Positions 35,420 through 43,271 of a stretch of 43,271 nt of DNA are shown here, one piece after another. Under the pieces are notes generated by a model, which saw only the letters and a list, made by a program, of their open reading frames with translations, did no database searches and was not told where the DNA came from. The position numbers and the translations under genes were made by a program. Every line of letters begins with the position of its first letter. The stretch's first letter is position 1. The stretch comes from Saprospiraceae bacterium (GTDB taxonomy: Bacteria; Bacteroidota; Bacteroidia; Chitinophagales; Saprospiraceae), in NCBI GenBank assembly GCA_022844565.1, contig JALHLK010000017.1, positions 1-43,271 of the forward strand, given 5' to 3'.

Positions 35420-35453
35420 CTACTCCATCATTACTGCTCTTGCTACTCCATCA
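35420..35453. repeat. 11-bp direct repeat near the end of blaI
   Basis: CTACTCCATCA occurs at 35420-35430 and again at 35443-35453, where it includes the blaI stop codon. The surrounding bases also match loosely, so it looks like a small local duplication. Confidence 0.5.
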
Positions 35454-35825
35454 CTCCTGTTCGTCCTTAAATTTGGACTTAATTTTTTCAAGGTCACTCA
35501 GTGAGAGGTCATTTTCTTTTACTAAAAAACTTACTAATTCATTCATCGATCCCTCAAAATAGGAACTCACCAGATTGCGCACCGAAAATTTAGAATACTC
35601 TTCCTTACGTACGATAGGAAAATAAACATAAGTGCGACCAAATGCCTTGTGATCTAAAAATCCTTTACTTTCCAAGATGCGGGTGATGGATGAAATGGTG
35701 GAATGTGGTGGTTTTGGTTCTGGCATATCCGCGATGAGCTCTGTCACGGTTGCCTCTCCCCTATCCCAATACATGTGCATCAATTCTTCCTCCGCCTTGG
35801 TCAATCTCTCTAATCTACTCTTCAT
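35451..35825 (-). CDS. blaI: BlaI/MecI family transcriptional repressor
   Basis: A 124-residue winged-helix repressor. LTKAEEELMHMYWDRGEATV opens the DNA-binding domain, and STISSITRILESKGFLDH is the recognition helix region. GRTYVYFP is the wing. The C-terminal helices mediate dimer formation. Members of this family are released from DNA after cleavage triggered by a BlaR1-type partner, which is the gene 75 bases downstream. It has a well-formed promoter with a dyad over the -33 box, which suggests self-repression. Whether the pair controls beta-lactam response or another envelope stress is unknown; no beta-lactamase is nearby. Confidence 0.94.
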   Translation of the reverse strand: MKSRLERLTKAEEELMHMYWDRGEATVTELIADMPEPKPPHSTISSITRILESKGFLDHKAFGRTYVYFPIVRKEEYSKFSVRNLVSSYFEGSMNELVSFLVKENDLSLSDLEKIKSKFKDEQE

Positions 35826-35852
35826 CTCTTCCTTCTAAAATTAATTACAAAA

Positions 35853-35883
35853 CAAATATACAACGTATTTTTTAGTTATGCAA
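35853..35883 (-). promoter_or_regulatory. blaI promoter
   Basis: On the minus strand TTG (35883-35881) is 20 bases before TATATTTG (35860-35853), a full match to the -7 consensus with good spacing. Confidence 0.65.
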
Positions 35884-35887
35884 CTAA
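35872..35887. promoter_or_regulatory. Candidate BlaI operator
   Basis: TTAGTT and AACTAA flank four bases, a perfect dyad that covers the -33 box of blaI. Its TAGT/ACTA core recalls sequences bound by BlaI/MecI proteins, so it is a likely site of self-repression. This is inference from position and symmetry. Confidence 0.45.
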
Positions 35888-36024
35888 TTTTTAAGTTATT
35901 TTTAAAATAAATATTTTGGCAGATGAAAAATGTAGATAAATAGGAGGTTTTTGGATTAAAAATGGGGAAAATAATTTTTAATAGAATGTAGGGAAATTTA
36001 ATTTAGAAAATTGTTAGGCTAAAG

Positions 36025-36056
36025 TTTGGTAAAAGAAAAGATGGATATTAAATTTG
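36025..36056 (+). promoter_or_regulatory. Predicted cas9 operon promoter
   Basis: TTTG (36025-36028) is 20 bases before TAAATTTG (36049-36056); both boxes match the Bacteroidota consensus. Transcription would start near 36063 and give a cas9 leader of about 184 bases that runs antisense through the whole tracrRNA gene. No better plus-strand promoter is seen between the tracrRNA and cas9. Confidence 0.6.
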
Positions 36057-36133
36057 TTTTTCAAGAAAAAGCTCCAAAAAACATGAAAACACCGTTTCAA
36101 AGAAATTTTGCAAGAAGATTAAGCTTTAAAAAC

Positions 36134-36208
36134 AAAAAAGCCCCGAAGATAGTCGAGGCGCTATATGTTTTCACAACGGAATAATCCTTATTGTGAATTG
36201 CTTTTGTT
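36134..36208 (-). ncRNA. tracrRNA of the type II-C CRISPR system
   Basis: The minus strand begins with the anti-repeat AACAAAAGCAATTCACAA (about 36208-36191), which pairs over 18 continuous bases with the 5' end of the minus-strand repeat, plus one G-T pair. The linker TAAGGATTATTCCG and the GTTGTGAAAAC nexus follow. The RNA ends in a terminator hairpin, GCCTCGA/TCGGGGC (36159-36140), with six T. A promoter sits directly upstream. The predicted length is about 75 bases, close to other II-C tracrRNAs. The gene is divergent from cas9 and lies between the cas9 promoter and the cas9 start codon. TTCACAA and TTGTGAA inside it can also pair with each other. Confidence 0.9.
36140..36159 (-). terminator. 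tracrRNA terminator
   Basis: A seven-base stem with one G-T pair and a six-base loop, followed on the minus strand by six T (36139-36134). On the plus strand there is no T-run after the hairpin, so cas9 transcription should pass. Confidence 0.85.
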
Positions 36209-36212
36209 GCTA

Positions 36213-36242
36213 CAAAGATATTATATAATTTAAAAAACCAAA
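36213..36242 (-). promoter_or_regulatory. tracrRNA promoter
   Basis: On the minus strand TTTG (36242-36239) is 18 bases before TATCTTTG (36220-36213). Both are full matches to the Bacteroidota boxes. The -33 box ends four bases short of the cas9 ATG, so this promoter overlaps the cas9 ribosome-loading region. Confidence 0.75.
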
Positions 36243-36246
36243 GAAA

Positions 36247-39200
36247 ATGGGTAAAAATATTTTGGGACTGGATTTGGGAAATACATCTATTGGATGGGCA
36301 TATGTTATTGAAGGAGAGAATCGAGATGACTCTAAAATTATTCAAATAGGAACTAGAGTTAATCCTTTGACAACTGATGAACAAACCGATTTTGAAAAAG
36401 GTAAGCCAATAACAATTAATGCGGATAGAACACTTAAACGAGGAGCAAGAAGAAATTTAGATAGATTTCAGTTAAGAAGAAAAAATCTAATTGAGATATT
36501 ATTAACTTCTAGGTTAATTACAAACAGCACATTACTTGCAGAAAATGGATTAAATACTACTCATGAAACATGGCAATTAAGATCAAAAGCTGTTACAGAG
36601 AAGATAAATAAATATGAACTAGCTAGAGTATTTTTAGCTATAAATAAAAAAAGAGGGTATAAAAGCAGTCGAAAAGCCAAAAATGACGAAGAAGGGCAAG
36701 CAATAGATGGTATGGCCATAGCCAAAAGACTTTATGAAGAAAATTTTACACCTGGTCAATTAGTATTTCAATTGCTCACAGAAGGGAAAAAAATTATACC
36801 CGATTTTTATCGCTCTGATCTACAGAAAGAATTAGACCTTGTTTGGAGTTTTCAAAAACAATTTTATCCAGAACTTTTAACCGATTCATTTTACAAAGAA
36901 ATCCAAGGAAAAGGACAAAGACAAACAGCCGCTACTTTTTGGGGAAAGTATAAAATTACAACTGTAGATATTAAAGCCAAGTCAAGAGATGAAAAAAGAA
37001 TACAATCTTATTCATTGAGAATCCAAGCATTGGAAAAGTGTCTCACAATAGAAGAAGTAGCATATGTGATTACAGAAATTAACAACAACCTTAACAATTC
37101 AAGCGGATATTTGGGCAATATTTCTGATAGAAGTAAGGAGCTCTATTTTAATAAAGAAACAGTAGGCCAAAATTTATACAAAAAGTTAAAATCAAATCCA
37201 CATACTAGGTTAAAGAATCAAGTCTTTTATCGTCAAGATTATTTAGATGAATTTGAAACAATTTGGAAAGAACAATCAAAACATCATACTGAACTGACCG
37301 AAGAATTAAAGGCAGAAATCCGAGATGTAACCATTTTTTATCAACGAAAACTCAAATCCCAAAAAGGACTAATTAGTTTTTGTGAATTTGAAAATAAAGA
37401 AAAAATTATTAACGATAAAAAGAAAATTATTGGGCAAAGGGTGGCTCCTAAATCTTCACCACTAACTCAAGAGTTTAAGATTTGGCAGATTCTCAATAAT
37501 GTAGAAGCAAGGAAAAAGGGAAAAAAACAACAAATTCAAAATAACACTTTTCAACCATCACTTTTTGAAGAAAACCTACAATTTGTTTTTGATTTTGAAA
37601 CCAGACAAAGTTTATTTGAAGAACTCAATATCAAGGGCAACCTATCAGCAACAAAAATAATTGAATTATTAGGTTACAAACCAACAGATTGGGAGCTCAA
37701 TTATACTCAGTTAGAAGGTAATATTACTAATAAAAACCTATATAATGCCTACTTAAAAATTATAGAAATAGAAGGATATAATGTTAAAGAAATATTGAAT
37801 GTAAAATCTAACAAAGATGAGATAGAATTAGATGATTTAAACATACCCGTCTCAAAAATTAAAACATTTATTAAAGATATATTTGATACTCTAAATATTA
37901 ATTCAGAAATTCTTAATTTTAATGCTGAACTAGATGGTAAGGAATTCGAAAAACAGCCATCATATCAACTTTGGCATTTACTTTATTCATATGAAGGTGA
38001 TGATTCACAAAGTGGAAATGAAAAGCTCTTTGAATTGCTAAATAAAAAATTTGGCTTCAAACTTGAACATTCCAAAATTTTAGCTAATGTCTCTCTACCT
38101 ATCGATTATGGTAGTCTTAGCACCAAAGCTATTCGAAAAATATATCCTTATATTAAAGAAAATAAATATAGTGTTGCATGTGAATTCGCAGGTTATAGAC
38201 ATTCAGCAGCCTCCTTAACAATAGATGAAATCAATTCGAGACCTCTAAGAGACAAATTGGATATATTAAAGAAAAATAGTCTACGTAATCCAGTGGTTGA
38301 AAAAATATTAAATCAAATGGTTAATTTAGTCAACCAGCTTATCGATAAAAATAGCAAGAAAAATGCTAATGGAGAAATTATTGAATATTTCAAATTTGAT
38401 GAAATAAGGATTGAACTTGCAAGAGAGTTGAAAAAAAATGCCAAGGAAAGAGCTGAAATGACAAGCAATATTAATGCAGCAAAAATTGAGCATGAAAAAA
38501 TATTTAAAACCTTGCAAAACGAATTTGGAATTAAAAATCCAACAAGAAATGACATAATACGCTATAAATTGTATGAAGAACTTAGAAATAATGGTTACAA
38601 AGACCTATATACAAACACTTATATTCCAAAAGAAATTCTATTTAGTAAAGAAGTAGATATAGAGCACATAATTCCCCAATCACGTCTATTTGACGATAGT
38701 TTTTCAAATAAAACATTAGTTTACCGACATACCAACCTAGACAAGGGCAATCAAACTGCATATGATTATATTTTAGCCAAATTTGGAAATGAAAAACTAG
38801 AAGAATATACACTTCTCTTAGATAAGCTATATAAATTAGGCAAAGAGGAAGGAATCTCAAAGGCTAAATATCAAAAACTTCTAAAGCAAGAAAGTGAAAT
38901 AGGTGATGGGTTTATTGAGAGAGATTTACGAGATAGTCAGTATATAGCTAAGAAAGCAAAAAATATGTTGCTCGAAATTACTAGAACAGTTGTATCAACT
39001 TCTGGAAATATAACAGATCGACTTCGCGAAGATTGGGGACTTATTAACATAATGCAAGAATTGAATTTCGAAAAATTTAAGGCACTTGGTCTAACAGAAA
39101 ACGTTGAAAAAAAGGACGGGAACTTTAAAGAACGGATAATAGCCTGGACAAAAAGAAACGATCACAGACACCACGCTATGGATGCACTGACCGTAGCCTT

Positions 39201-40536
39201 TACTAAGCACAATCATATTCAGTACCTCAATTATTTGAATGCTAGGAAAGACCAAAAGCATAATATGCATAACAACGTAATTGCTATAGAAAACCTTGAA
39301 ACGGAGCTAAAAATAAATGATCAAGGACAAAAACAGAGAGTGTTTAAATCTCCAATCGACAATTTTAGGCAAGTGGCAAAAGAACATTTAGAAAATGTTT
39401 TGGTGTCTCACAAGGCAAAGAATAAAGTTGTTACCAAAAATAGGAATATAATTAAAGGTACCAATGGTGAAATATCAAAAATTGAACTCACTCCTCGTGG
39501 CCAACTTCACAAAGAATCCATGTATGGAAAATATCAGTTTTATATAAATAAAGAAGAAAAGGTTGGAACTAAATTTGATGAAGAAACTATACTTAAAATA
39601 AGTAACCCAACTTACAAATTATTGCTTTTACAAAGACTTATTGAAAATGGCAAGGATCCTAAAAAAGCCTTTGGAGGACCAAATGCTTTAAATAAAAATC
39701 CTATCTTTATTGATGGTGACAGAACGAATCCAATGCCAGAATCAGTAAATTTGACTTGGCTCGAAGAAGATTATTCTATCCGTAAAGATATTTCTCCTGA
39801 TAACTTTAAAGATGTAAAATCGATTGAGAAAGTTCTTGACTCAAAAATTAAAAAAATACTAATTGAAAGGCTTCAAAGTTATGGTAACGACGCTAAAAAA
39901 GCTTTTTCAGATTTGGAAAAAAATCCAGTTTGGCAAAACGAATCTAAAGGCATTTCTGTGAAGAGAGTTACAATTTCTGGCGTCAAAAACGCTGAATTTT
40001 TACATTATAAAAAGGACCACTTAGGCAACGAATTGAAAGATAAAAATGGAAATCAAATTCCAGTAGATTTTGTAAGTACTGGAAACAACCACCACGTAGC
40101 TATTTACAAAGATGAAAACGGAAATTTACACGAAAGAGTGGTTTCTCTTTTTGATGCAGTAAAACTAATCAAAGAAGATCTACCAGTAGTGGACACTTAT
40201 TATAATCAAGGTATTGGTTGGCAATTTATGTTTTCTATGAAACAAAATGAATATTTTGTTTTTCCTAATGAAAAAATGGGATTCGAACCAAATGAAATTG
40301 ACTTGTTAGACCCGAAAAATAAGAAACTGATTAGTCCTAATTTGTTTAGAGTACAGAAATTTGGATCATTGTTGTCAGGTATTTGGTTTCGACATCATTT
40401 AGAAACAAATGTAGATGCTCAAAGTGTATTAAAAGGAACAACGTATAAGGTTATTCAAAGTTTACCACATCTGAAGGATATCAAAAAAGTTAGAATTAAC
40501 CATTTGGGAGATATAATTCAAATCGGGGAATACTAA
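36247..40536 (+). CDS. cas9: CRISPR-associated endonuclease Cas9, type II-C
   Basis: A 1429-residue Cas9, the long form common in Bacteroidota II-C systems, which cuts double-stranded DNA under guidance of crRNA and tracrRNA. RuvC-I is LGLDLGNTSIGW with Asp9. The Arg-rich bridge helix is RTLKRGARRNLDRFQLRRK, from about residue 62. A long recognition lobe follows. RuvC-II is IRIELARE with Glu723. The HNH domain has DIEHIIPQSR, with catalytic His807 and Glu806, and Asn830. RuvC-III is HHAMDAL with His976 and Asp979. The remaining ~400 residues form the wedge and PAM-interacting region. All catalytic residues are present, so it should be active. It heads a cas9-cas1-cas2 operon; absence of csn2 and cas4 supports subtype II-C. 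The PAM cannot be read from sequence. Confidence 0.98.
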   Translation: MGKNILGLDLGNTSIGWAYVIEGENRDDSKIIQIGTRVNPLTTDEQTDFEKGKPITINADRTLKRGARRNLDRFQLRRKNLIEILLTSRLITNSTLLAENGLNTTHETWQLRSKAVTEKINKYELARVFLAINKKRGYKSSRKAKNDEEGQAIDGMAIAKRLYEENFTPGQLVFQLLTEGKKIIPDFYRSDLQKELDLVWSFQKQFYPELLTDSFYKEIQGKGQRQTAATFWGKYKITTVDIKAKSRDEKRIQSYSLRIQALEKCLTIEEVAYVITEINNNLNNSSGYLGNISDRSKELYFNKETVGQNLYKKLKSNPHTRLKNQVFYRQDYLDEFETIWKEQSKHHTELTEELKAEIRDVTIFYQRKLKSQKGLISFCEFENKEKIINDKKKIIGQRVAPKSSPLTQEFKIWQILNNVEARKKGKKQQIQNNTFQPSLFEENLQFVFDFETRQSLFEELNIKGNLSATKIIELLGYKPTDWELNYTQLEGNITNKNLYNAYLKIIEIEGYNVKEILNVKSNKDEIELDDLNIPVSKIKTFIKDIFDTLNINSEILNFNAELDGKEFEKQPSYQLWHLLYSYEGDDSQSGNEKLFELLNKKFGFKLEHSKILANVSLPIDYGSLSTKAIRKIYPYIKENKYSVACEFAGYRHSAASLTIDEINSRPLRDKLDILKKNSLRNPVVEKILNQMVNLVNQLIDKNSKKNANGEIIEYFKFDEIRIELARELKKNAKERAEMTSNINAAKIEHEKIFKTLQNEFGIKNPTRNDIIRYKLYEELRNNGYKDLYTNTYIPKEILFSKEVDIEHIIPQSRLFDDSFSNKTLVYRHTNLDKGNQTAYDYILAKFGNEKLEEYTLLLDKLYKLGKEEGISKAKYQKLLKQESEIGDGFIERDLRDSQYIAKKAKNMLLEITRTVVSTSGNITDRLREDWGLINIMQELNFEKFKALGLTENVEKKDGNFKERIIAWTKRNDHRHHAMDALTVAFTKHNHIQYLNYLNARKDQKHNMHNNVIAIENLETELKINDQGQKQRVFKSPIDNFRQVAKEHLENVLVSHKAKNKVVTKNRNIIKGTNGEISKIELTPRGQLHKESMYGKYQFYINKEEKVGTKFDEETILKISNPTYKLLLLQRLIENGKDPKKAFGGPNALNKNPIFIDGDRTNPMPESVNLTWLEEDYSIRKDISPDNFKDVKSIEKVLDSKIKKILIERLQSYGNDAKKAFSDLEKNPVWQNESKGISVKRVTISGVKNAEFLHYKKDHLGNELKDKNGNQIPVDFVSTGNNHHVAIYKDENGNLHERVVSLFDAVKLIKEDLPVVDTYYNQGIGWQFMFSMKQNEYFVFPNEKMGFEPNEIDLLDPKNKKLISPNLFRVQKFGSLLSGIWFRHHLETNVDAQSVLKGTTYKVIQSLPHLKDIKKVRINHLGDIIQIGEY

Positions 40537-40595: not shown

Positions 40596-41495
40596 ATGAT
40601 CAAACGCACACTATATTTTGGTAATCCCGCTTATTTATCCGTTAAGAACAATCAACTTTGCATTAAAAAAACTGGAGATAACCCAGAAGAACATACCATA
40701 CCCATTGAAGACATAGGTATCCTCATAGCAGACCATCAACAAGTGACTATCACACACTCCGTGATAACACTACTTCAAGAAAATAATTCTGTCATAATAT
40801 GGTGTGGGTCCGATCATATGCCCCTATCTATGAGCTTGCCCATATATGGAAATGATACGTACAGTGAGAAATTAAGGTACCAAGTGGAGGCTAGTGAACC
40901 CCTCAAAAAACAGCTATGGAAACAAACAATTAGTGCTAAGATCAAAAATCAATCTTATTTGCTGCGGCATCTTGGATATCGGTTTATCCATTTAGAAAAA
41001 ATGATCGCCAAGGTCAACAGTGGAGACCCTGAAAACTATGAAGGACAAGCAGCTGCCATCTATTGGAATGCATTGCTAAAACAACATGAAGTAACGCGAG
41101 GTAGAGATGATGGAGGCCCAAATGTATTGTTCAATTATGGATATGCTATATTAAGAGCAGTCATTGCAAGAAATCTTGTGGGTAGTGGTTGCTTACCAGC
41201 ATTAGGCATACATCATAGTAATAAATACAATCCGTACTGTCTTGCAGACGACATCATGGAGCCATACCGCCCGATAGTAGACCAATATATTATGAAATAC
41301 CTCAGTCAAATAAAAGAACATAATGGGAACTTAACCAAAGAGGATAAAGCATATTTATTACAAATACCGGTGTTGGATGTATCCATACAAGGCAAAGATA
41401 GCCCTCTTATGGTCGGAGCCCAACGAACCACAGCAAGTTTGGTACAATGTTATCAAGGCAAAGCAAGAAAAATATTATATCCCGATTTACAATGA
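40596..41495 (+). CDS. cas1: CRISPR integrase Cas1, type II-C
   Basis: The 299-residue protein catalyses spacer integration together with Cas2. It starts MIKRTLYFGNPAYLSV, the usual type II N-terminus. The N-terminal beta domain ends near residue 85 and a helical domain follows. Likely metal ligands are Glu149 in NYEGQAAAIYW, His207 in GIHHSNKYNP and Glu222 in LADDIMEPYRP, placed as in Streptococcus Cas1; the assignment between neighbouring His residues is by eye. It begins 59 bases after cas9 and overlaps cas2 by four bases, so cas1 and cas2 are translationally coupled. Confidence 0.97.
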   Translation: MIKRTLYFGNPAYLSVKNNQLCIKKTGDNPEEHTIPIEDIGILIADHQQVTITHSVITLLQENNSVIIWCGSDHMPLSMSLPIYGNDTYSEKLRYQVEASEPLKKQLWKQTISAKIKNQSYLLRHLGYRFIHLEKMIAKVNSGDPENYEGQAAAIYWNALLKQHEVTRGRDDGGPNVLFNYGYAILRAVIARNLVGSGCLPALGIHHSNKYNPYCLADDIMEPYRPIVDQYIMKYLSQIKEHNGNLTKEDKAYLLQIPVLDVSIQGKDSPLMVGAQRTTASLVQCYQGKARKILYPDLQ

Positions 41496-41827
41496 TTACA
41501 AGACTTAATAAATATCAGATTATGTGGGTATTTGTACACTTCGATTTACCTACCGACACCAAGAAAGATCGGAAGGCTTATACCGTATTTAGAAAATTTC
41601 TATTAGACGATGGTTTTAAAATGATCCAATATAGTATGTATGCAAGACATTGCAGCAGCAGAGAAAATGCAGAAGTACATAAAAAAAGAGTAAAATCCAA
41701 ATTACCTCCTTTGGGGCAAGTCATTGTTTTCGAAATTACGGATGTACAATTTGGAAGAATAGAGTTTTTCTTTAGTGAAAAACCAAAACCACCATCTAAT
41801 CTCCCAAAGCAATTGGAATTATTTTGA
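41492..41827 (+). CDS. cas2: CRISPR-associated Cas2, type II-C, with QLELF tail
   Basis: I start at the ATG at 41492, which overlaps the cas1 stop as ATGA; the longer frame begins inside cas1. The 111-residue product has the ferredoxin-like Cas2 fold: first strand MWVFVHFDLP, with Asp18, then FRKFLLDDGFKMIQYSMYAR and the strand QVIVFEITDVQF. Cas2 is the structural core of the Cas1-Cas2 integrase. The end of the protein is unusual: after a Pro- and Lys-rich linker (SEKPKPPSNLPK) it closes with QLELF, which fits the short motif used by many proteins to bind the DNA polymerase sliding clamp. A hairpin follows before the array. Confidence 0.95.
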   Translation: MITRLNKYQIMWVFVHFDLPTDTKKDRKAYTVFRKFLLDDGFKMIQYSMYARHCSSRENAEVHKKRVKSKLPPLGQVIVFEITDVQFGRIEFFFSEKPKPPSNLPKQLELF

Positions 41828-41939: not shown

Positions 41940-43271
41940 GTTGTGGCAAATATCAGTAAATCAAAGAACAAAAGCAATTCACAACCAATCTTCCTCATTA
42001 TCGAAAAAAGCACATGTTGTGGCAAATATCAGTAAATCAAAGAACAAAAGCAATTCACAACTCATTACTAAGTACTACTATATAGGTACTGTTGTGGCAA
42101 ATATCAGTAAATCAAAGAACAAAAGCAATTCACAACTTACTTACACTAGCATCAGGCAACGTCCAAGTTGTGGCAAATATCAGTAAATCAAAGAACAAAA
42201 GCAATTCACAACTATATGACATTAATAGTTTCCCAAATTATCGTTGTGGCAAATATCAGTAAATCAAAGAACAAAAGCAATTCACAACCTCCGAGAGATT
42301 CAACTTAGAGAAGCCACCGTTGTGGCAAATATCAGTAAATCAAAGAACAAAAGCAATTCACAACATGTTGGCAATGGCAAAGTATTTTGGAATGGTTGTG
42401 GCAAATATCAGTAAATCAAAGAACAAAAGCAATTCACAACTATATTGAATCAATACACCAACTCCAAAACGTTGTGGCAAATATCAGTAAATCAAAGAAC
42501 AAAAGCAATTCACAACCTAAAGTCAGGAATTGTATTTAGTGAAAAGTTGTGGCAAATATCAGTAAATCAAAGAACAAAAGCAATTCACAACCATTAGCAT
42601 CAAATAAACCACCTCCATAAGTTGTGGCAAATATCAGTAAATCAAAGAACAAAAGCAATTCACAACTCTTTTCCTACTTTGAGCACAAAGCTTGCGTTGT
42701 GGCAAATATCAGTAAATCAAAGAACAAAAGCAATTCACAACTGTGTAAATGTTGGGTTTGATTTCCCTACTGTTGTGGCAAATATCAGTAAATCAAAGAA
42801 CAAAAGCAATTCACAACCCTGACTTTAGCTTATACACAACGGTTTCAGTTGTGGCAAATATCAGTAAATCAAAGAACAAAAGCAATTCACAACTGATTTC
42901 TTAATATCATTCCTAGCTTATTGGTTGTGGCAAATATCAGTAAATCAAAGAACAAAAGCAATTCACAACTGGTGTGGTGTGGTGGGTAGGCCCAAGGCTG
43001 TTGTGGCAAATATCAGTAAATCAAAGAACAAAAGCAATTCACAACTAATAATTAGTAGTGCTATTGTTTTCTAAGTTGTGGCAAATATCAGTAAATCAAA
43101 GAACAAAAGCAATTCACAACAGTATAAATAGCGGCAGTATTACACCTACAGTTGTGGCAAATATCAGTAAATCAAAGAACAAAAGCAATTCACAACTAAT
43201 AATTAGTAGTGCTATTGTTTTCTAAGTTGTGGCAAATATCAGTAAATCAAAGAACAAAAGCAATTCACAAC
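41940..43271 (-). CRISPR. Type II-C CRISPR array, 18 repeats and 17 spacers, cut by the window edge
   Basis: Eighteen 46-base repeats (plus strand begins GTTGTGGCAAAT and ends GCAATTCACAAC) are identical by eye throughout, including the cas2-proximal one. Spacers are 29 bases (six) or 30 bases (eleven). Repeat ends GTTGTG and CACAAC form a dyad. The crRNA strand is the minus strand, on which each repeat starts GTTGTGAATTGCTTTTGTTC, because only that strand pairs with the tracrRNA. So transcription runs right to left, and the leader should lie beyond 43271. Spacer 15 (43046-43074) and spacer 17 (43197-43225) are identical. Repeats begin at 41940, 42016, 42091, 42167, 42243, 42319, 42395, 42471, 42546, 42621, 42696, 42772, 42848, 42924, 43000, 43075, 43151 and 43226. 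No spacer target was recognised inside the window. Confidence 0.98.

Follow-up and report, generated by a model that had tools for sequence, protein, structure and literature searches.

In Streptococcus agalactiae, which carries a type II-A CRISPR-Cas system, a distal cas promoter at the 3′ end of the tracrRNA, P2cas, drives cas9, and strains without the proximal promoter depend on it (PMC12216829). Other S. agalactiae strains retain the proximal promoter P1cas, which is repressed via the long tracrRNA, and P2cas is under the control of CovR (PMC12216829). RNA-seq in this species revealed an antisense RNA, about 100 nt long, that covers the tracrRNA 3′ end and was suggested to modulate the tracrRNA (PMC4448216); we infer that this RNA starts at P2cas. 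In Streptococcus pyogenes, as told in the S. agalactiae study, cas9 is repressed by Cas9 itself, which acts on the promoter DNA with the long tracrRNA as its guide (PMC12216829). Among the type II-C systems of Bacteroidetes, the tracrRNA model CRISPRCas_38 is typically found within 100 bases upstream of cas9, and the passages of the published account that describe the model make no statement on a promoter or on antisense transcription (PMC9067536). The F. psychrophilum study, in its passages on the Fp2Cas9 locus of Flavobacterium psychrophilum, took TAnnTTTG as the cas9 promoter motif, a promoter of the Bacteroidota type (PMC10309648). For CRISPR1 of Riemerella anatipestifer, the passages of the report that deal with the locus describe neither a cas9 promoter nor an antisense leader (PMC5006608).

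In this study, we analyzed a stretch of 43,271 nucleotides from a Saprospiraceae bacterium (hereafter the window) in which a cas9 promoter is predicted beyond the tracrRNA gene. As in the published description of S. agalactiae P2cas, this promoter would stand at or beyond the tracrRNA 3′ end and point toward cas9; the window differs in that it is type II-C, has another promoter type, shows no proximal promoter and has no known regulator. The first-pass annotation of this DNA had contrasted it with S. pyogenes as a different layout, which is half right. The two have in common a tracrRNA gene upstream of cas9, and control of cas9 by a tracrRNA product is a feature of S. pyogenes that is proposed here, whereas the window lacks a long-tracrRNA guide match to the cas9 promoter. 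However, S. agalactiae does have a cas promoter located at the 3′ end of its tracrRNA (PMC12216829), and the predicted layout is a variant of this known arrangement with a distal cas promoter and not a new kind. Loci of the same phylum share other parts of it. The window tracrRNA is probably of the CRISPRCas_38 type, matched by the published description as to phylum, subtype and place (PMC9067536). The Fp2Cas9 locus, as described, is likewise II-C with the tracrRNA adjoining cas9 and a cas9 promoter inferred from its motif, but there the promoter was proposed to lie in an IS982 copy within the tracrRNA-cas9 gap (PMC10309648), and the described R. anatipestifer CRISPR1 is also II-C, of the same phylum, with an anti-repeat upstream of cas9 (PMC5006608). 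A literature search of open-licence papers listed none that describes a Bacteroidota cas9 leader antisense to the tracrRNA.

The locus and its predicted promoters

The window holds a type II-C CRISPR-Cas locus: cas9, cas1, cas2 and an array are present, csn2 and cas4 are absent (three large frames scanned), and the anti-repeat of the tracrRNA matches the array repeat (Table 1). One spacer of the array is duplicated (43046-43074 and 43197-43225), with one other spacer in between. Targeting of the cas9 promoter by the array was considered and dropped, the longest match of the 16 distinct spacers to 35826-36260 being 10 nt, which gives no sign of it. All elements claimed by the first-pass annotation are present at their positions, and the tracrRNA does lie wholly between the predicted cas9 promoter and the ATG; this holds for the layout, the use of the promoter being itself a prediction.

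Table 1. Features of the type II-C locus and their positions in the window
Feature	Position	Strand	Remarks
cas9	36247..40536	+	1429 aa; ATG at 36247; Pfam RuvC_III and HNH_4
cas1	40596..41495	+	Pfam Cas_Cas1
cas2 reading frame	41447..41827	+	Pfam CRISPR_Cas2, residues 26-104
CRISPR array	41940..43271 (to window end)	crRNA sense minus	18 exact 46-nt repeats in window; 17 spacers, 16 distinct
BlaI/MecI-type repressor gene	35451..35825	minus	Pfam Penicillinase_R; divergent from cas9
Likely BlaI promoter box	35860-35853	minus	box score 10.3
tracrRNA	36134..36208 (start 36208)	minus	anti-repeat, nexus and terminator; core conserved in relatives
tracrRNA intrinsic terminator	36134..36159	minus	GCCTCGACTATCTTCGGGGC and T run; terminator search
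tracrRNA promoter	36213..36242	minus	TTTG 36242-36239; box TATCTTTG 36220-36213, score 10.5
Predicted cas9 promoter	36025..36056	+	TTTG 36025-36028, 20 nt, TAAATTTG 36049-36056; score 8.4
Predicted cas9 mRNA leader	36063..36246	+	about 184 nt; would hold the full tracrRNA complement; placed from the box
crRNA-repeat-like leader segment	36191..36209	+	TTGTGAATTGCTTTTGTTG; 18 nt identical to repeat, crRNA sense

The tracrRNA gene lies 5′ of cas9 and is transcribed away from it. The anti-repeat of the tracrRNA matches the repeat over 18 nt and is accompanied by the nexus TAAGGATTATTCCGTTGTGAAAACAT and by a terminator hairpin that has a T run; an Rfam search with the tracrRNA gave no match at the gathering score. 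Its terminator is the sole one found in 35500-36700, where shuffles average 0.6, and the search of the same interval for plus-strand terminators found none; the tracrRNA hairpin was rejected as a plus-strand terminator because its T run is on the wrong side. The TTTG of the tracrRNA promoter sits 18 nt upstream of the box. A TA..TT[TA]G box at 22-45 nt is present in 58 of 100 relatives versus 3.3 in shuffles, and a TTG at the matching upstream spacing accompanies 41 of 103 strong tracrRNA promoters.

The promoter matrix was trained on 100 tracrRNA promoters of a first set of loci, the one of the window included, and no plus-strand cas9 box was used; the several box cut-offs were chosen by us. 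With this matrix, the plus strand from 35826 to 36260 contains only one box scoring at least 5, that at 36049-36056, and a TTG stands at −23 from it, within the range typical of strong tracrRNA promoters. A score of at least 7.5 together with an upstream TTG is reached by eight sites on both strands of the whole 43-kb window, three of which are 36049, the tracrRNA promoter and the BlaI promoter at 35860. The position of the BlaI/MecI-type gene on the minus strand and its strong box mean that 35826-36134 reads as a divergent promoter region. The Bacteroidota promoter type differs from the sigma-70 type, and a sigma-70 promoter scan of the region found none (shuffle mean 5.0).

The three Cas9 proteins closest to that of the window in a whole-genome homologue search (72-76% identity) are encoded by L002, L003 and L031, of which L002 and L003 are near-twins. 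All three loci have a short tracrRNA-cas9 gap, and the window's cas9 promoter box is absent from them. Similarity to the window fades at the tracrRNA terminator, with other DNA upstream. That it ends there suggests that a mobile cassette may begin at the tracrRNA terminator (36134), the cas9 promoter beyond it coming from new surroundings. In L002, a small frame on the plus strand upstream of the tracrRNA was dropped, since its near-twin L003 had none listed.

Gap length and promoter position in related loci

Cas9 homologues came from two sources: the best 80 loci among named genome contigs, and whole genomes that were searched with the protein, by alignment or with the tracrRNA core. The set consists of best-scoring or pattern-found hits and is not a random sample. 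Of 395 genomes drawn from the class, 54 matched in the tracrRNA core search, as did 27 of 395 drawn from the phylum; the draws overlap. We kept 158 nonredundant loci in which the tracrRNA is divergent from cas9 and no more than 700 nt upstream. Besides duplicates, this leaves out 13 distinct cas9 loci in which no tracrRNA core could be recognised within 700 nt, the near-duplicates L003 and L014, and loci whose Cas9 start the script did not find (10 of 136 in one set); the promoter tests further exclude loci that lack a tracrRNA end or enough upstream sequence.

Measured from the anti-repeat 3′ end to the ATG, the distance is 40-81 nt in 88 loci, 88-210 nt in 60 and larger in the remaining 10, the first two groups forming clusters with few loci between them; in the window it is 56 nt. 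Most of the gap in short-gap loci is taken up by the tracrRNA promoter, and in these 88 of 158 loci there is little room for a cas9 promoter between the tracrRNA and the ATG, which suggests that a short gap with a putative antisense leader is a common layout in related loci. The tracrRNA box scores lower in short-gap loci (median 8.5 in 83 rows vs. 11.1 in 69 rows, p 0.0004), which may reflect weaker tracrRNA output or sequence constraint alone.

Plus-strand boxes were then compared with 100 shuffles, either singly, with the tracrRNA-promoter matrix and an upstream zone in which the box ends no more than 100 nt before the tracrRNA 3′ end, or as two-box sites with a TTG at the spacing typical of strong tracrRNA promoters (cut-offs 4.5, 6 and 7.5). 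The upstream zone of short-gap loci holds a box of at least 7.5 in 14/83 (shuffle average 4.8, maximum 11) and of at least 5.5 in 26/83 (average 12.7, maximum 22). Two-box sites in this zone number 14, 8 and 6 of 83 at the three cut-offs, against 2.7, 1.3 and 0.6 in shuffles, whose maximum in 100 runs was 6 at cut-off 6 and 3 at 7.5; the window is one of the eight and, by its score, also of the six. On these excess-over-shuffle ratios, we take the box at 36049-36056 as probably, not certainly, real. No box fell within the tracrRNA body of the short-gap loci (0/83).

In long-gap loci, a box of at least 7.5 occurs within the gap in 17/58 (shuffles 4.5, maximum 10), mostly 21-60 nt before the ATG, and upstream boxes stay near shuffles at 3/58 vs. 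3.2 (cut-off 7.5) and 10 vs. 7.7 (5.5); their upstream two-box sites number 4, 2 and 0 of 58 vs. 1.7, 0.9 and 0.5. The direct contrast between short- and longer-gap loci for upstream two-box sites is weak (13/82 vs. 4/68, 8 vs. 2 and 6 vs. 0; Fisher p 0.07, 0.11 and 0.03 at the three cut-offs). In phylogenetically independent pairs the upstream box, two-box or single, was not significant, whereas the gap box does track a longer gap, partly because a longer gap offers more room. As to its promoter, a P2cas-like layout is suggested by the predicted box at 36025-36056 and by the group excess over shuffles, but the contrast with long-gap loci is weak. A comparison of related loci for a conserved cas9 promoter upstream of the tracrRNA, as the first-pass annotation had called for, supports the arrangement through the frequency of the short gap and through upstream boxes that exceed shuffles, although L002, L003 and L031 lack the window's box.

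It is possible, if rather unlikely, that cas9 is instead transcribed from an unrecognised promoter inside the 38-nt gap and carries a short leader that is not antisense. Such a promoter would fit with the 57 of 83 short-gap loci that have no box of at least 5.5 in the zone beyond the tracrRNA, with the lack of the window's box in L002, L003 and L031, and with a TATAAT at 36224-36229 on the plus strand. However, a box inside the gap is seen in 2/83 short-gap loci, against 3.3 in shuffles at 5.5 and 0.8 (maximum 3) at 7.5, the gap is already taken by the tracrRNA promoter on the opposite strand, and where long-gap loci have a gap promoter, its box is of the same type.

A quick tree built on the first 480 Cas9 residues (157 rows, one short-protein row left out) requires 39 changes of layout, at least 26 of them on well-supported branches, compared with 51.6 for shuffled labels. 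The layout is clustered yet labile, and module exchange could inflate the number of changes. In the alignment, a further tracrRNA-like 3′ segment, a hairpin with GGGGCAACTC and a T run, is present in L040 and L048 some 50-80 nt past the tracrRNA 3′ end, as if an older tracrRNA had stayed behind after cassette replacement.

A palindrome at tracrRNA promoters of other loci

As a side result, a palindrome, TACGG-N4-CCGTA, was found upstream of the tracrRNA box in 13 of the 158 loci, all with gaps above 100 nt (L035, L036, L037, L039, L048, L050, L053, L070, L122, L168, L170, L172 and L173). In 12 of these loci its distance to the anti-repeat end is 48-60 nt, and it stays with the tracrRNA at the longest gap. 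In the 1.65 Mb of fetched loci the core ACGG-N4-CCGT was counted 18 times, a number that includes the 13. Eleven genomes contain 3-15 copies each; a reversed control pattern is commoner than the palindrome in four of them and nearly equal in a fifth, so that many palindrome copies may be there by chance. At least 7 of the 11 genomes have a copy no further than about 320 nt from a gene that belongs to a single response regulator family, and in both loci scanned with Pfam this gene follows a TPR histidine kinase. The regulator is encoded in 13/13 palindrome genomes versus 10 of 27 others that we picked ourselves, two of which carry copies with one mismatch (L074 and L080); kinship may explain part of this association. 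The response regulator is a possible candidate for a dedicated regulator of tracrRNA transcription in other II-C loci. A literature search for the motif in six spellings returned one unrelated paper alone. No exact copy was found in the genome of the window, and the palindrome therefore has no bearing on it.

A predicted antisense leader and the expression of cas9

It seems that the tracrRNA stands so near cas9 that its promoter would occupy the gap up to the ATG, so that cas9 would be transcribed from a promoter beyond the tracrRNA 3′ end. Transcription would then run backwards through the tracrRNA gene, keeping its complement as a leader, and the two promoters would face each other about 150 bp apart. 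The leader of this predicted transcript is likely antisense to the tracrRNA, and a duplex with all 75 nt of the latter has a computed energy of −132.9 kcal/mol, compared with −25.2 for tracrRNA and crRNA repeat. The duplex would stop 38 nt before the cas9 ATG; the ribosome site should therefore stay uncovered, and binding need not be blocked. Since both RNAs share the same DNA, the perfect complement is unavoidable and is neither independent evidence nor a sign of selection. The predicted leader also contains a 33-codon ATG frame (36083-36184) that spans most of the antisense segment, probably by chance.

Such a leader might act in three ways: polymerases from the two facing promoters could collide, RNase III could cut the duplex, and the leader could use tracrRNA. 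We prefer passive interference because nothing here points to the pairing as such having been selected. On this view, a standing, mild drop in cas9 mRNA would come from polymerase collision and from antisense pairing with excess tracrRNA, with no dedicated sensing step. In the other, interchangeable layout, cas9 would have a promoter of its own inside a wider gap. We would put at about even the chance that the locus is an ordinary Bacteroidota type II-C cassette with a distal cas9 promoter, an antisense leader and passive, mild interference, representing one of two interchangeable layouts.

The first-pass annotation had gone further and proposed that the tracrRNA could pair with the leader, attract RNase III or Cas9 and lower cas9 output, linking the enzyme level to free tracrRNA. 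In a true regulatory loop of this kind, pairing would go through the repeat-like segment, the duplex would be cleaved by RNase III, alone or together with Cas9, and the amount of cas9 mRNA would drop. We consider this loop unlikely, and the claim that tracrRNA pairing regulates cas9 is unsupported so far. The 75 bp of complementarity, which include 18 nt of crRNA repeat and give the stable duplex computed above, would favor it, as would the frequency of the short-gap layout and the account of Campylobacter jejuni, in which tracrRNA pairs with repeat-like host mRNAs and turns them into guides (PMC8224270). However, a loop would be easily lost given the layout switches on the quick tree, the upstream DNA of L002, L003 and L031 differs, the duplex ends ahead of the ATG, and the complementarity follows from the overlap anyway. 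By reasoning, the sign of such a loop would depend on the form of tracrRNA. If only free tracrRNA triggers leader cutting, more Cas9 would leave less free tracrRNA and hence more cas9 mRNA, a positive feedback through which cells could divide into Cas9-high and Cas9-low ones; a requirement for Cas9-bound tracrRNA would instead make the feedback negative. A broader version, in which the leader of about half of the Bacteroidota II-C loci is a built-in tracrRNA antagonist, with destruction of cas9 mRNA by free tracrRNA, consumption of tracrRNA by cas9 mRNA, protection of Cas9-bound tracrRNA and a positive feedback with a possible threshold or Cas9-high/Cas9-low split, switched on and off in evolution by gain or loss of a gap promoter, appears improbable to us.

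Similarly improbable is that cas9 is expressed mainly by read-through from upstream and that 36025-36056 is a chance match, although the leader would run across the tracrRNA in this case as well. Of 75 short-gap loci, 17, including L031, have a longest upstream frame that runs in the cas9 direction and stops no more than 300 nt from the tracrRNA 3′ end. However, both of the genes nearest upstream in the window (back to 32610) lie on the minus strand. Autorepression of the streptococcal type, in which a longer tracrRNA would guide Cas9 to the cas9 promoter, is strongly disfavored: a weak second minus-strand box (36259-36252, score 6.1) could start a longer tracrRNA, but the longest match of the 5′ extension to the cas9 promoter region is 8 nt, within shuffles, and none of its segments pairs with the anti-repeat beyond 5 nt.

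If the cas9 leaders of short-gap loci are antisense, then the expression of tracrRNA and cas9 cannot be independent in those loci, and sister loci with and without the overlap, such as L041/L054, L040/L139 and L043/L048/L049, would constitute a natural experiment. In that case, expression constructs with a replaced leader would drop the coupling of tracrRNA and cas9 unnoticed.
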